Shown here in pieces: positions 28,470 through 48,376 of a stretch of 62,669 nucleotides of DNA. The position numbers were made by a program, and so were the translations under genes. The notes under the pieces are model-generated. The model saw nothing but the letters and a program-made list of their open reading frames with translations. It was not told where the DNA came from and did not search any database. The number at the start of each line of letters is the position of its first letter. Within the stretch, counting starts at the first letter, position 1. Location of the stretch: NCBI GenBank assembly GCA_003833135.1, contig QZLH01000698.1, forward strand, positions 1 through 62,669, in the 5' to 3' direction. The DNA is from Oehlia diaphana (Eukaryota; Glomeromycota; Glomeromycetes; Glomerales; Glomeraceae).

Positions 28470-29204
28470 AAAAATTTGCGTAGTGCACGCACTACTGTAC
28501 TGGCGCTTAATACTCTTTGTTGAATTTTGTATCGAAAGAAACGTGGAACCTTTTTTTCTTCTTGTAAAACGTTTTTGGTCGATATTACTCTATTTTTTTT
28601 CTAAATATAAGTTATAATAAAGACTCAAGTATGGTTTTTAACTCTTTATAAAACCTTTGATCTTTTTTTTACCATAATAAAATTTTTGGTCGAATGATCT
28701 GCAATTTTTTTGTTATACATTCTTAGCTCTTGTTACCCAGTTAAATCTGAAACTTGTATACGAATAACTATTATCCTATACATAAGCCGAATTTTTTGCA
28801 TTGCGGCCTAAAGTAAAGCTATTCGTGGATCTGCAAGTAAATTTTTTTATAACTCGGATAATTTGGACCAGATCTGCAGCAATTTTTAACAGTTTCGGCC
28901 AAATATACAATAAGGACTTTGAAATATCGGCCATATCAATATTTTATTAAAATACAAGTTTACAAAAATCCCAGGCCGAAACTCTTTCTAAGTGTTGTAT
29001 AGACATTGCAGAAGCCTTATTTCATTCAGATCTACAAACTGCAGATAATTAATAGCCGACATATTTTCGCCCACATGTGTAAACTAACCCATAAATGGGT
29101 AACAAGAGATCGGCACTCATTTACTATTAGTTCTACGCATCTTTTCGGGCAGAATTACATAATACCGCCGGCATTATCCAGCTCCCCATTCTACTCATGT
29201 TCGG

Positions 29205-29225
29205 CTTCTATATATATATACTCTA
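29205..29225 (+). promoter_or_regulatory. TATA-like element before the pseudokinase gene
   Basis: 'ctatatatatatactctaat' lies about 60-75 nt before the proposed ATG at 29283. The placement is reasonable for a core promoter, but AT-rich DNA gives such strings easily. Confidence 0.35.
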
Positions 29226-29282
29226 ATAAAGGCGTTTGCCTTATTTTTTAGAAAAAATCTCAGTATAATTAATTGTTCAGTA

Positions 29283-32200
29283 ATGGCTAATAGTAACGAC
29301 GAAGGTAAAAGCATATAGCATAAACGTAGATATTAAATACAAAATTGGAATTCTAAATTTTTTTTATAACAAATTTGCAATATAATAAAACTAGTTTCAA
29401 TAATTGAAGAAAATATAGGTAGGCAAAAATTCAATGAGCCTGAAATTATAAATATATAATTTTAAAATTTTATACTGCGTTTACCTATTTTAGCTCGTAA
29501 GTTATAGGTTATCTTGTAGTTTGAATAATAGTTGAATTACTTACTCCTATTATATTTTAAATAACCAAATAATTTATTTTATTATTAATGTTATTATAGT
29601 TGGTAAGTTATTAGCCATTTATTTTTTATTGTATTCTAAATGATATTTAATTCTTCACTAAACTAATTTGTTTAATAATCAATGATGTTATAGAAAGTAA
29701 GTATTTAATTTTTTATATTAATTTAAAATATTTACATAATTCAAACTAATAATAATATTATTAAAATAATTAGATTGTAAGTCACTGTATATATTCAATT
29801 TTTATATAAGGTTATAATATTTTATTAATTTATTATGATTACTTTACTTTAAAACTATTATTAATTAATAATACTACAGGGTGTAAGTTACTTATTATTT
29901 ATGTTTCTGTGATTTTATATGCAAACTTAACTAAATTCTTTATTTAAAATTTTAGTTGGTAAGTCATAAGTTATTTATTTTTAATTGAAAATTTCTCAAT
30001 ATACACGGCATTTCAAACACGGATCACGTGACGTTATAACGAAAAAATAATGCGAAAAAAATTGATAAATATACCTTAAAAAAATGTACAGTGTATGTAT
30101 TTACTTAAAGTATCAAAGATGGTTTTGAATGTCATTTTTGTCTTGACTTAATTAACAGATTTTTTTTCTTCATTAAATTTAATAGTTACCTTTTGAGCCC
30201 CCGTGTACAAATAGAAATTACCTTATTAATTGAATTTATTATTATATTTACTTATAATTTATACTAACTAAATTCAAAATATTTTAGATGGTAAGTTACA
30301 AGTTATTTATTTAATCTATAAAATATTGAATTATGATTTAAACTAACCAAATTCTTTATTTATTTAATAATATAGAACGTAAGATATTATTTAATTCTAT
30401 TATATTTTTATAATTTTTGCAAGTAATTTAAACTAACTAAAATCTTTATTTTTAGTTGGCAAGTTATAATTTATTTATTTATATTTGTTTAATATTTACA
30501 TATTAACTAAATTCTTTATTTAAAATATGATTTATTTAATAATGTAGAACGTAAGATATTTTATAATTTTATTACGTTTATTGTTATATTTACAAACTAA
30601 CTAAATTCTTTATTTTATTATAGAATGTAAGATATTATTAAATTATATTATGCTTATATAATGTATACATATAATTTAAACTAACTTTTTATTCAAATAT
30701 TTATTTTAATTAATAATATAGTGTGTAAGTTATTTGTTTAAACTTATATAAGGTTATATAAAAATTAGACTAACTAAATTTTATATTTTATTTAATATTA
30801 TAGGGAGTAAGTTTTTTATATAATTCTATTATATTTATTTATATATTTGCATATGATTAAACTAATTAAATTCTTTATTTGAAAATTATTCAAATATTTT
30901 AGTCGGTAAGTTATAGTCATTTATTTAATTCTATTATATTTATATAATATTTATATATAATTTAAACTAACTAAATTCTTTATTTAAATATTATTAAAAT
31001 CTTTTAGCTGGTGAGTTAGAGCTAATTATTTCATTCTATTTATCATATTTATATAATTTAAACTAACTAATTCTTTATTTTCAATTATTTAGATAGTAAG
31101 TTACAAGTATTATATTTATATAAATTTATATATAATTTAAACTAACTAAATTTTTTATTAAAAAAATTATTCAATATTTCAGTTAGTAAGTCATAAGTTA
31201 TTTGCTTAATTTCTATTGTATTTATATAATATTTACATATAATTTAAAATAATTAAATTCTTTGTTTAAAAAATCATTTATTTAATAATATAGGAAGTAA
31301 GTTATTTATTTAATCCTACTATATTCATATTTTATTTATATATAATTTAAACTAACTAACTATGAAATTTTTTTAAAAAATTATTCAATATTTAGTTGGT
31401 AAGTTATAGTTTTTTATTTATTATATTTACATATAATTTAAATTAACTAAATGCTTTATATTAAAATCATTCAAATATTTTAGCTGGTAAGTTATAGTTA
31501 TCTATCTATTATATTATATAATTTAAACTAACTAAATTTTTATTTTAAAAATCATTCAAATATTTTAGACGGTAAGTTGTCTATTATATTTATATAATAT
31601 TTACATATAATTTATTCTAATTAAATTCTTTTTGAAAAATTATTTAAATATTTTAGATGGTAAGTCTATTATATATTTTTGTTTATACAATATTTACATA
31701 TTATTTATATTAATTCTTTATTTTCTTTATTTAAAACAATTATTCAAATATTTTTAGATGGTAAATTATTTAATTTTATTATGTTTATACAATATTTACA
31801 TATAATTTAAACTAAATTCTTTATCTAAAATATTATTTGAATCTTTTAGTTGGTAAGTTATAACTATTATATTTATATAACATTTCCATACAATTTAAAT
31901 TAACTAAATTCTTTATTTAAAAATTTATTTAAATATTTTATTAGTTTGTAAGTATACATTACATTATCCAATTATAAAATTCCTGAATTTAATTTATTAT
32001 ATATACTAATCTTTTTAAAAATTTTTGGTAATTTATTTTAGTTGGTAAGTTATAAGTTATTGTATATTATTTTTATAAAAATTTATTATTTATTTATTGT
32101 ATTAAATTTCTAAAAATTTATTTAGAGTAAGTATAATTAACATTATTTAATATTTAAATTTTTTGCTTTTATGTTTTATTTTAAATTTTACTTATATAAT

Positions 32201-34695
32201 TTATTTTTTATATTTAAAGATCTGGTAATAGTGGAAGTGAAATTATGGATCAATTTATTTTTGAAAATAAATTAAAATGGATTCCTTATAATAAATTTGA
32301 AAATATTAAATATCTTAATAAAGGTGGATTTGGTATTATTTATGAAGCTACATATAATAATTATAAAGTAATTCTTAAATCTCTTAATTGTCTTAATAAT
32401 TCATATGAAAGTTTAAATGAATTTTTAAATAAGGTATGATTAAATATTTTAATTTTAATTACAATTTAATTATTCTAATTTATTCTAATATTATTTTTTT
32501 TTTTATAGTGGAGAATTATTGATTCAAATAAAATTATTAAAATATATGGATTTACAAAAGAACCAGATACTTTGAATTATATGTTAGCAATGGAGTATGC
32601 AAATAAAGGTAATTTAAGAGGATGCATAACAGAAATAACAAAAAATTGGGAACAGAAATTATATATGTTGTATAAAATTATTATTGGTCTTAAGGATATT
32701 CATGAAAAAGGTCTTATTCATTATAACTTTCATGATGGTAATATTTTATGTAACAAATATTCAGAAAATGTATATGAAATTTATATTAGTGATTATTTAA
32801 GATCATATCAACTTGCAACACCTTTCTCAAAAGAGAGTAGTATTTATGGCATTATACCATTTATGGCACCTGAAATTTTAAGAGGCAAACCTTATACTCA
32901 AGCTAGTGATATATATAGTTTTTCTATGATTATGTGGGAATTTACATCTGTTATTCCACCATTTAATGATAAAGCACATGATCTTCAACTTGCTTTAAGT
33001 ATTTGTAAAGGTGAACGTCCTGAAGTTATTGAAAATACTCCACAATGTTTTATAGATTTGATGAAAAAATGTTGGGATGAAGATTCATTAAAAAGGCCAT
33101 CTGCATCAGAAATTTTAGATACCATTGAAAAATGGATTTTCCTTTCTTCTAATATAGAAAATAATAAAGAATTAAAAAGCAATATTATGGAATTTATAAA
33201 TGCACCAATTGGATACAATAACCTTATTGTGGAATCTCATTTACAATCATATTATACAAGTAAATTACTTGATTTTACTAGTAAAGAATTAAATAAAATT
33301 TTAAAAGAATCTCAAGAAGTAAAAGATGACGATGATATTGAGCAGGAACTACTTAAATTAGGAATAATTGCTGAGACTAGTTCTCAAAATGAGCTAAAAG
33401 AGGTATATCAAAATATTCAAATAAAATTAGTTGATTTACAACAAAAGAATTTTCAATTTGAGCGAGATAATCAAATTCTAAGGCTTAACTTAGCTGTACA
33501 AATTAAAGAATTTGCAGTAAAAGAAAATACTTTACAAACACAAATTACTCTCTTGCAAAAGCAAGCCTTACTAGCCAGTGATTTAACTGAACATTTGGAA
33601 CAAAACAAACTGATTAACCAGCAGATTCAAATTCAAATAGACCATTTAGAGCAAGAAAAAATCGGGTTGCAAGAAAAATTAATTCAAACAGAAGCTAATA
33701 TTCAAGAATTAAAATCTCAGCAAGAAGCTTTAATTGAACAAAAAGAGCAATTAGAAAATAAAATAAGTCAATCTCAAGATAATTATAAGGTAATAGAACA
33801 AGGAAAAATCAAGTTGTACAATATGGGAAAAGGTCTCTCACAAGATCATAAATTGAAAGCTAAATTGGAAAAGGAAATTGCTCAATTGGAACAAAAATTG
33901 ATTATTGAAGATCAAATCAAAATGCAATTAACTCAAGCTTTACGAATCAAAGAAGATAAAGTAAATGAATTAGAACAAAGATTGATTGTCCTTGATTATG
34001 AGCGCATTGAAAGGCTAAAAGGCAAAGAAAAAGAATTGAGTAAAGTCATAGAGGAATTAGTAAATAAATTAACTAGTGGAGAAAATAAGGAAATTCATAA
34101 AGAAAAAGAAGCTAAACAAAGAGAAATGGTTGGACTCCAACAAGAATTGTCAAAAACTTCAGCTTTTTATTATTCCAATAGAAAGAAACAAGTTCTTAAT
34201 CAAGCAAATAATTTTCTAAAAGCCAAGGATAATTTTTTAGCTTTACGAGAAGAAGCTATTAATAAACTGCAAAATTGTTGCAATGATCTGGAAAGGTTTA
34301 CTAATAAAGAAAGAAATACTATTGGTTCTATCAGTGATATGAAAATCTTCAAATTGGCTGATAAATATACTAAAGAGTTTCAAAATACTCTTGTAAAGTA
34401 TAGTGATGGATTACTACAGTTGAATAAAGTTTATGACTCTTTAGTGGATATTGTTCAAAAAAATAGAGAGTTGGAAGTTAGTCTTGTTGTTGAAGATATG
34501 TTTAAGTTGAATTCTTTTAATCTTGACAAATACAATATCTTTAAATTTGCTACTAATTCTCAGGAAGGAGCTAGAACGCAATTAAATTCTAACATGATGA
34601 TGGAAGATATAGATTCATTAAGAAAGAATTTGAATGAATTGAAATCAGAATTAAAACAAGAAAAAAAGGAATTGAAAAATTTAGCGGCAGATTAG
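29283..34695 (+). CDS. Pseudokinase with micro-exon N-terminus and C-terminal coiled coil
   Basis: The proposed first exon is 29283-29304 (MANSNDE plus one base). Then come 26 three-base exons and one single-base exon (separate entry), then 32220-32433 and 32509-34695 (TAG). The lengths sum to 834 codons, giving 833 aa without an internal stop. Residues about 50-300 are a TKL-type kinase fold: Gly-rich KGGFGIIYEA, ATP lysine in VILK, and APE in MAPEIL. The HRD motif is HYN (176-178) and DFG is DYL (200-202), so the catalytic Asp is missing and the domain is probably a pseudokinase, acting as scaffold or regulator. Residues about 395-720 are a long Q/E/K-rich heptad region, probably coiled coil. 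If the array is not spliced in, translation could instead start at the ATG at 32245 (791 aa). The coding body is secure; the N-terminus is inferred. Confidence 0.72.
29494..32126 (+). other. Array of 26 three-nucleotide exons plus a one-nucleotide exon
   Basis: Each unit reads AG, three bases, then GTAAGT or a close variant. Triplets: 29494 CTC, 29600 TTG, 29694 AAA, 29774 ATT, 29880 GGT, 29956 TTG, 30288 ATG, 30376 AAC, 30456 TTG (GC donor), 30548 AAC, 30624 AAT, 30722 TGT, 30804 GGA, 30903 TCG, 31008 CTG, 31093 ATA, 31193 TTA, 31294 GAA, 31396 TTG, 31494 CTG, 31569 ACG, 31657 ATG, 31758 ATG, 31850 TTG, 31945 TTT, 32042 TTG. A single A stands at 32126 between AG and GTAAGT. Most introns carry a branch-point-like 'aaactaactaaattc'. 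Spacing is 75-106 nt except where a MITE lies (29959-30287). Exon 1 leaves one base. All triplets keep that phase, and the single A supplies the base needed to enter exon 32220 in frame (GAA-TCT). No stop arises. A further optional 9-nt exon is possible at 29410-29418. Confidence 0.7.
30004..30205. mobile_element. MITE with TA flanks inside a micro-exon intron
   Basis: The ends are 'CACGG' and 'CCGTG', directly flanked by TA on both sides (30002-30003, 30206-30207), as in Tc1/mariner-type insertions. It contains 'ggatcacgtgacgttataac'. Its insertion explains why the interval between the triplets at 29956 and 30288 is about 200 bp longer than normal. Confidence 0.65.
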
Positions 34696-35153
34696 AATTA
34701 ATGGATTATAGTACAGTTTATGAACGGCTATTGATTCATTGAAATGAACGTCTTAAGTATTTAGAATTTATTAGAAATTTTGGGAATTTTTTCTCATTGA
34801 TTTATCATTATCTTATTATAATATTTGGATACTTTCTTGTTTAGTTTATCAAAGGTTTTAATAAAAGAGCATTAAAAAACTTTTTTTAAAATGTGATAGA
34901 GGAAGAATTCTTTCTCATAAAATAATCATTTTACCATTTTATATGGTGTAAATATTTTTTAAATTAAAACAAGTAAATTACACGATATATAAAATCATTT
35001 TTATCAATATATATATATTGCAATGGTCAGTTATGGTCGTCTTAGTTGGTCATAACCAGTTAGAACCCGTTCTGCTAAAAGTGTTCTGTTTTTATTTCGT
35101 TAACAAAATTTAGTTTTAGCATTTATAAACAATTGTATTGCACTCACTTATTA
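34696..35153. other. 3' flank of the pseudokinase gene
   Basis: It contains AT-rich sequence with possible polyadenylation signals ('aataaaagagcattaaaaa' at 34859). Near 35025-35070 is a short 'ggtcagttatggtcgtctta' and 'ggtcataaccagtt' imperfect inverted motif. No gene is supported. Confidence 0.5.
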
Positions 35154-48232: not shown

Positions 48233-48376
48233 TCAGGATTTTAATTCCACTGGAATTTAGGTTTATCGGGATTATAATTCAATTGGAATTTAGGTTTATC
48301 AAGATTATAATTCAACTGTAATTTGGGTTTATCAGGATTATAATTCAACTGGAATTTAGATTTATCGGGATTTTTG
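48233..48376 (+). repeat. Four-copy minisatellite, about 34-bp unit
   Basis: The unit is 'ggattataattcaactggaa' followed by 'tttaggtttatc(a/g)'. Copies begin at about 48236, 48270, 48304 and 48336, with single-base differences. It ends at 'cgggatttttg'. Confidence 0.85.

Follow-up and report, generated by a model that had tools for sequence, protein, structure and literature searches.

Predicted runs of one-codon exons ahead of kinase-like domains in the fungus Oehlia diaphana

We report a predicted gene of Oehlia diaphana in which the front part of a kinase-like protein is encoded almost one codon at a time. In the window, by which we mean the whole 62,669-nt contig analysed here (QZLH01000698.1 of assembly GCA_003833135.1), an exon of 22 nt, one of 24 nt, 26 exons of exactly one codon and one exon of a single nucleotide are all predicted to be joined, in their genomic order, to a pseudokinase exon, a reading to which we assign a probability of about 0.9. 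At least 20 kinase-like genes are predicted to carry such a front part. Across dozens of genes of this one fungus the arrays very probably act as a coding satellite, in which the repeated unit is an intron plus a codon and the tail of the protein is resized residue by residue.

Between positions 29492 and 32050 of the forward strand, all 26 sites made of AG, three bases and a splice donor that the original prediction had described are present. The corresponding exons, all on the forward strand, are CTC (29494–29496), TTG (29600–29602), AAA (29694–29696), ATT (29774–29776), GGT (29880–29882), TTG (29956–29958), ATG (30288–30290), AAC (30376–30378), TTG (30456–30458, followed by a GC donor), AAC (30548–30550), AAT (30624–30626), TGT (30722–30724), GGA (30804–30806), TCG (30903–30905), CTG (31008–31010, with a GTGAGT donor), ATA (31093–31095), TTA (31183–31185), GAA (31294–31296), TTG (31396–31398), CTG (31484–31486), ACG (31569–31571), ATG (31657–31659), ATG (31758–31760, with the weak donor GTAAAT and absent from a stricter model), TTG (31850–31852), TTT (31945–31947) and TTG (32042–32044). 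The fourth and fifth of these form a Trp codon split as T and GG, and the same ATT-GGT pair was present in 21 of 31 loci scanned. The donor is GTAAGT in 20 of the 26 units, GTAAGA in three and GCAAGT, GTGAGT and GTAAAT in one each. Units are spaced 76–111 nt apart apart from one step of 332 nt. The intron between the sixth and seventh units is 329 nt long and contains an insertion-like stretch (29990–30219) with imperfect inverted ends of 28 nt, whose arms are 71% complementary and contain ACACGG and CCGTGT.

The strict form of the motif, AGNNNGTAAGT, matched 26 times across both strands of the whole window, compared with 1.13 matches expected and a largest count of 4 in 100 dinucleotide shuffles. 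Twenty of the 26 matches fell inside the array, where the minus strand had none. Elsewhere in the window, a 52-bp tandem unit is repeated 5.1 times with 95% matches (2406–2671), and a 33-bp unit, a multiple of three and possibly coding, is repeated 4.2 times (48233–48372).

The predicted gene starts with a 22-nt exon (29283–29304, forward strand) that carries the start codon and encodes MANSNDE plus one nucleotide, leaving phase 1. A homologous ATG exon was found in 18 of the 21 scanned loci, window included (absent from L010, L023 and L026), mostly 22 nt long and always a multiple of three plus one. Between this exon and the array lies a second exon of 24 nt (29395–29418, forward strand; VSIIEENI), with counterparts of 24, 27, 30, 33, 51 or 99 nt found in 19 of 21 loci. 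Its length is divisible by three in 18 of these, the exception being the 50 nt of L028 under boundaries of our own placing; those of L012 and L023 were set by hand. Beyond the array, a 1-nt exon (A at 32126, forward strand) sits between an AG (site at 32124) and GTAAGT, moves the frame from phase 1 to phase 2 and supplies the middle base of a Glu codon split as G, A and A. A terminal 1-nt exon closes all 13 of the models in our discovery set, as A in 11 and G in two. It is needed for the frame because exons 1 and 2 end in phase 1 and the kinase exon starts in phase 2; without it, exon 1, exon 2 and the kinase exon together reach a stop after 33 codons.

The first kinase exon (32220–32433, forward strand) begins SGNSGSEIMDQF, and a second one (32509–34695, forward strand) continues into a long C-terminal part that ends with the stop codon. 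Once spliced, the model has 31 exons, 27 of them 1–3 nt long, in one uninterrupted frame of 841 codons. Profile matches to PF07714 (E = 9.4e-32) and PF00069 (E = 6.7e-30) place its product in the protein kinase superfamily. By eye, the protein reads HYNFHDGN at what we take to be the place of the HRD motif, without the catalytic Asp. A search of Rfam with positions 28900–34700 returned zero matches. The exon list of the original prediction was incomplete, lacking both the 24-nt exon and the 1-nt exon. Each 3-nt exon does add one codon, but the phase is constant only up to the 1-nt exon, where it shifts.

With the opening 307 bases of the array as query, a DNA search of the genome (108.8 Mb in 1672 contigs) gave 50 matches spread over many contigs. 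Twenty loci of 2.9 to 10 kb were taken, followed by ten more and by two that were reached through the kinase exon rather than the array. A correctly oriented kinase exon was found in 13 of the first 20 loci, the window not counted, and dropping L026 for an N gap in its array left 13 discovery models including the window. Loci of the first set were excluded for N runs in or after the array (L014, L015, L019 and L026), a contig end (L020), lack of a kinase hit (L010 and L028) or a kinase exon on the opposite strand (L024), and loci of the second set for N gaps (L030 and L031), lack of a chain (L032) or lack of a kinase hit (L038). The number of 3-nt exons per paralog ranged from 14 to 54, with the ends of the tails mostly conserved, often as A-L-E-N-W at the start and F-E-F-G at the end. 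In a comparison of how well units 1–5 of 17 loci are conserved in their splice sites, triplets and introns, the splice-site columns were set aside because the loci had been picked by those motifs.

The family is large: with 150 of 1649 candidates scored, at least 74 genomic sites, that of the window among them, matched the first kinase exon at E below 1e-12. Both loci reached through this exon had chains, of 40 and 31 triplets. Genome-wide, a pattern of three donors with two 3-nt exons occurred 645 times (281 and 364 by strand), compared with 11 times for the reversed pattern. The arrays that we read stand ahead of kinase exons, whereas those at C38:73006-89746 and C66:45627-48226, also built of 3-nt units, carry introns of unlike sequence and were without a kinase hit among the 150 candidates scored. 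These two possibly belong to other gene families with the same architecture.

Exon lengths were called by a dynamic programme blind to reading frame, which scored donors, acceptors and a CTAAC-like branch point and allowed exons of 1–40 nt; its scoring was seeded and trained with AG-NNN-GTAAGT sites. In the 13 complete discovery loci, 441 of 460 internal exons were 3 nt long and 13 were 1 nt long, one closing each chain, while a stricter first run on 12 loci had given 391 of 415 exons at 3 nt. Applied with frozen settings to the six usable loci among the later ten, which had been held out, the search called 240 of 258 exons at 3 nt, compared with 2 of 143 on their reverse complements and 0 of 44 in one dinucleotide shuffle of each. 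Because the search had been trained on 3-nt sites, a simple count of distances carries weight here: for 638 GTAAGT words in 21 arrays, the nearest upstream AG lay exactly 3 nt away in 570 cases and 1 nt away in 52, the latter as AGN triplets and terminal exons would produce. None of 32 GTAAGT words on the opposite strand had an AG at 3 nt. The array exons fall within the length usually set for microexons (up to about 30 nt between splice signals).

Entry into the kinase exon was in frame in 13 of 13 discovery loci, five of six held-out loci and both of the later two, so that 20 of 21 modelled genes were in frame once outlying calls had been removed. These were chain calls longer than 6 nt in the discovery set (5 of 460, at 13, 17, 24, 36 and 40 nt), calls other than 1 or 3 nt in the held-out set (11 of 258) and a single long call in each of L039 and L040. 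Several frames break if the outlying calls are retained, and their removal was decided after some had been seen to break the frame; many of them lie in unusually long introns. Tracing of the frame began at the exon 1 ATG in 12 of the 13 discovery loci, at exon 2 in L023, and at the first unit in the held-out and later loci. Substitutions point to the same register: middle-base variants in units 1–3 (L009 TCG, L016 TAG, L018 AGA and L023 CCC) are synonymous in four of four cases in phase 1 and in none of four when triplets are read as they stand. L026 and L036 also vary in these units and were excluded from the count for want of context, and unit 3 shows non-synonymous differences between subfamilies.

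Stop codons bear on whether the triplets are read. In phase 1, each codon takes its first base from the end of one exon and its other two from the start of the following exon, across an intron of about 93 nt, and because these codons straddle two exons, a stop depends on which exons are neighbours. Across the 19 genes of the discovery and held-out sets, only 2 of 668 adjacent pairs made a stop. In the discovery set, neighbours did so in 1 of 428 cases, compared with 16 of 415, 17 of 402 and 13 of 389 for exons at distances of two, three and four, and 20,000 shuffles of exon order within genes gave a mean of 15.8 stops and a minimum of 5. The held-out loci revealed the same pattern, with 1 of 240 for neighbours, 15 of 234, 14 of 228 and 15 of 222 at the three larger distances, and a mean of 12.7 and minimum of 4 in order shuffles (Fisher p = 1.9e-5). 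Over all 21 genes, an exon ending in T was followed by one starting with AA, AG or GA in 2 of 175 cases, with 32.3 expected. When each distinct pair was counted once, stops remained depleted among neighbours (2 of 339 versus 64 of 660; p = 3e-10), whereas a control register showed an excess among neighbours (42 of 339 versus 47 of 660; p = 0.007).

Both neighbour stops occur in damaged-looking copies, L016, in which the kinase frame ends early, and L034, in which the acceptor AG of the kinase exon is lost. In two further copies, L012 and L018, a stop interrupts the kinase exon but the tail has none, and gene damage and neighbour stops therefore coincide imperfectly. Stops are also rare when triplets are read in their plain register (1 of 391, compared with 13.7 expected if columns are shuffled independently), which counts against a clean phase-1 picture. 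The phase-1 reading does not call for such rarity, and we take it to reflect the copying of a few triplet types. Because the triplets are copies of each other, column-shuffled counts were dropped as evidence in favour of the within-gene order shuffles and the distinct-pair test.

We see no other explanation for the depletion of neighbour stops than that the exons are translated after being joined completely and in genomic order. From this pattern in the DNA, the triplet exons are very likely real and constitutive, with splicing itself inferred. The original prediction had gone further, holding that any subset of the exons could be skipped and that one gene could make very many N-terminal variants. 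Such free skipping of real exons appears improbable. Exons of 3 nt are symmetric, and about 96% of distance-two joins in the discovery set are free of stops, as skipping would call for, but joins that skip one exon make stops at the background rate (16 of 415 and 15 of 234) where neighbours make almost none (1 of 428 and 1 of 240), and the 1-nt exon is indispensable, the frame being lost without it. Because neighbour joins are nearly stop-free and distance-two joins are at background, selection would seem to see complete, ordered inclusion, although occasional skipping of one-codon exons may occur.

Less probable still is a purely satellite array, intronic or upstream, with splice-like words as passengers and a protein that starts at an ATG in the kinase exon (position 32245). 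Parts of the array do score as tandem repeats, and public proteins offer some support. A search with the spliced protein gave 343 hits; the named organisms among the 120 listed were all arbuscular mycorrhizal fungi, mostly R. irregularis, R. clarus and R. diaphanus with a few Funneliformis, Gigaspora and Glomus, and the jgi entries among them bear no species. Of twelve relatives, seven begin with MDQF or MNQF within the kinase exon and five have other N-termini. Against a passenger satellite, the avoidance of stops depends on neighbours and spans gaps of about 93 nt, the ATG at 32245 is kept in just six of 20 in-frame genes (that of the window, L012, L018, L021, L025 and L039), and exons 1 and 2 and the 1-nt exon are found again in paralogs and yield one open frame. 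The original prediction had preferred one-codon exons to a satellite of splice-like words, and the neighbour-stop test, the strand and shuffle controls and the 21 modelled loci all agree with that preference.

It is very unlikely that translation of the joined exons follows the plain triplet register, a reading suggested by one public protein. Residues 1–53 of P0082, a kinase-like NCBI protein of Rhizophagus diaphanus, match the terminal part of L035 exon 2 and, after it, 35 of the 39 L035 triplets, read in genomic order and in that register, in which stops are rare too. P0082 looks like an automatic gene model that had already chained one-codon exons. It resembles our models in having an N-terminus of concatenated L035 triplets and differs from them in register and in omitting exon 1 and four units (CTT, TTG, an inner TTG and the last TTG); by our reading, it also enters the kinase frame only if a 5-nt exon (AGTAA) replaces the 1-nt one. 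The neighbour-stop signal is confined to phase 1, and the middle-base variants (0 of 4 synonymous, versus 4 of 4 in phase 1) likewise speak against the triplet register. Equally improbable is that the units serve as stepping stones for recursive splicing of one long intron, with the triplets lost or irrelevant: every unit pairs an acceptor with a donor and the whole interval is about 2.9 kb, but ratchet points, as described in the excerpt available of PMC8605326, have no exon between AG and GT, whereas here AG and GT adjoin in 5 of 638 cases and are 3 nt apart in 570, and the triplets show the behaviour of codons.

Predicted splicing of the one-codon exons in phase 1 would mean that this front part is absent from, or wrongly read in, the public gene models examined. 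An annotated R. clarus model (P0016) has Sel1-like repeats (PF08238) ahead of the kinase. A search of 5.77 billion proteins with predicted residues 1–58 of L009, which required shared 5-residue words and similar length, gave nine candidates and none at E up to 10, showing only that nothing similar enough is annotated.

The unit of the array consists of an intron (median, 93 nt) with a donor, a branch-point-like CTAAC and an acceptor, together with exactly three exonic bases. Gain or loss of a unit would make the protein one residue longer or shorter with the frame kept, because every unit brings its own intron. Tails would lengthen by tandem duplication of single units and blocks, much as satellites do, and shorten by decay of splice sites. 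Self-comparison of L039 and L033 revealed long stretches with 66–83% identity in shifted register, and since units are alike along the length of these arrays, growth by tandem duplication is likely. Within seven of 27 long introns there is still a 3-nt unit whose donor is weakened (GTAAAT, GTAGAT or GTATAT), which looks like unit loss by splice-site decay. A fungal spliceosome that works by intron definition, recognising short introns rather than exons, would be able to cope with exons of 3 nt. The encoded tails are rich in Arg, Asn, Asp, Leu, Trp, Glu, Phe and Tyr, and the predicted N-terminus appears polar and charged by eye. The array would supply each gene with its own polar, aromatic N-terminal tail ahead of the kinase fold, changing in length and sequence by single residues, and a role of this tail in recognition or in pseudokinase regulation is our guess.

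Exons this small have precedents, as described in available portions of the papers cited here. Single-nucleotide exons are reported in APC11 and VPS55 of plants and in CYP621A of Fusarium, and they escape annotation (PMC12940212, PMC8831610). In CYP621A the 1-nt exon joins a phase-1 to a phase-2 boundary (PMC12940212), which is the same join that the terminal exon of the array makes; unlike these genes, each with one such exon, the 1-nt exon here follows 14–54 consecutive 3-nt exons. Micro-Ex8 of Drosophila homothorax is likewise exactly 3 nt long (PMC7392893), but it is single and alternatively spliced, whereas the array exons form an uninterrupted and apparently constitutive run. Schistosoma MEGs, which encode secreted proteins, contain many exons of 3–81 bp with introns of up to 5 kb (PMC10526429), and the window gene model shares with them the build of many very short exons in one gene; unlike their mixed lengths, its units are uniformly 3 nt, its introns are about 93 nt and its product is a kinase-like fungal protein. 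Introner-like elements of fungi, invasive introns that multiply in genomes (PMC4457414), also yield many similar introns with splice sites at their ends, but those of the array stand in tandem within one gene segment.

The annotation of the R. irregularis genome describes a kinase expansion and AUGUSTUS-based models, with no mention of tiny exons in the available portions of that paper (PMC6123716). Among the listed titles and opening lines of abstracts in the open-licence literature, we found no description of a run of one-codon exons. In the sources at hand, single 3-nt and 1-nt exons are known, and we found no known counterpart of the repeat architecture.

If confirmed by RNA, these genes would mark a new extreme of exon–intron structure, with tens of consecutive one-codon exons, every codon of the tail split by an intron and an obligatory 1-nt exon at the end. 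They would establish that splicing can link dozens of 3-nt exons in their proper order and would provide a testable system for the lower limit of exon size and for splicing fidelity. They would also represent a route from satellite to coding sequence, by which a protein tail is diversified without frameshift. Finally, the N-termini given in databases for a large family of kinase-like proteins of arbuscular mycorrhizal fungi would prove to be missing or wrong.
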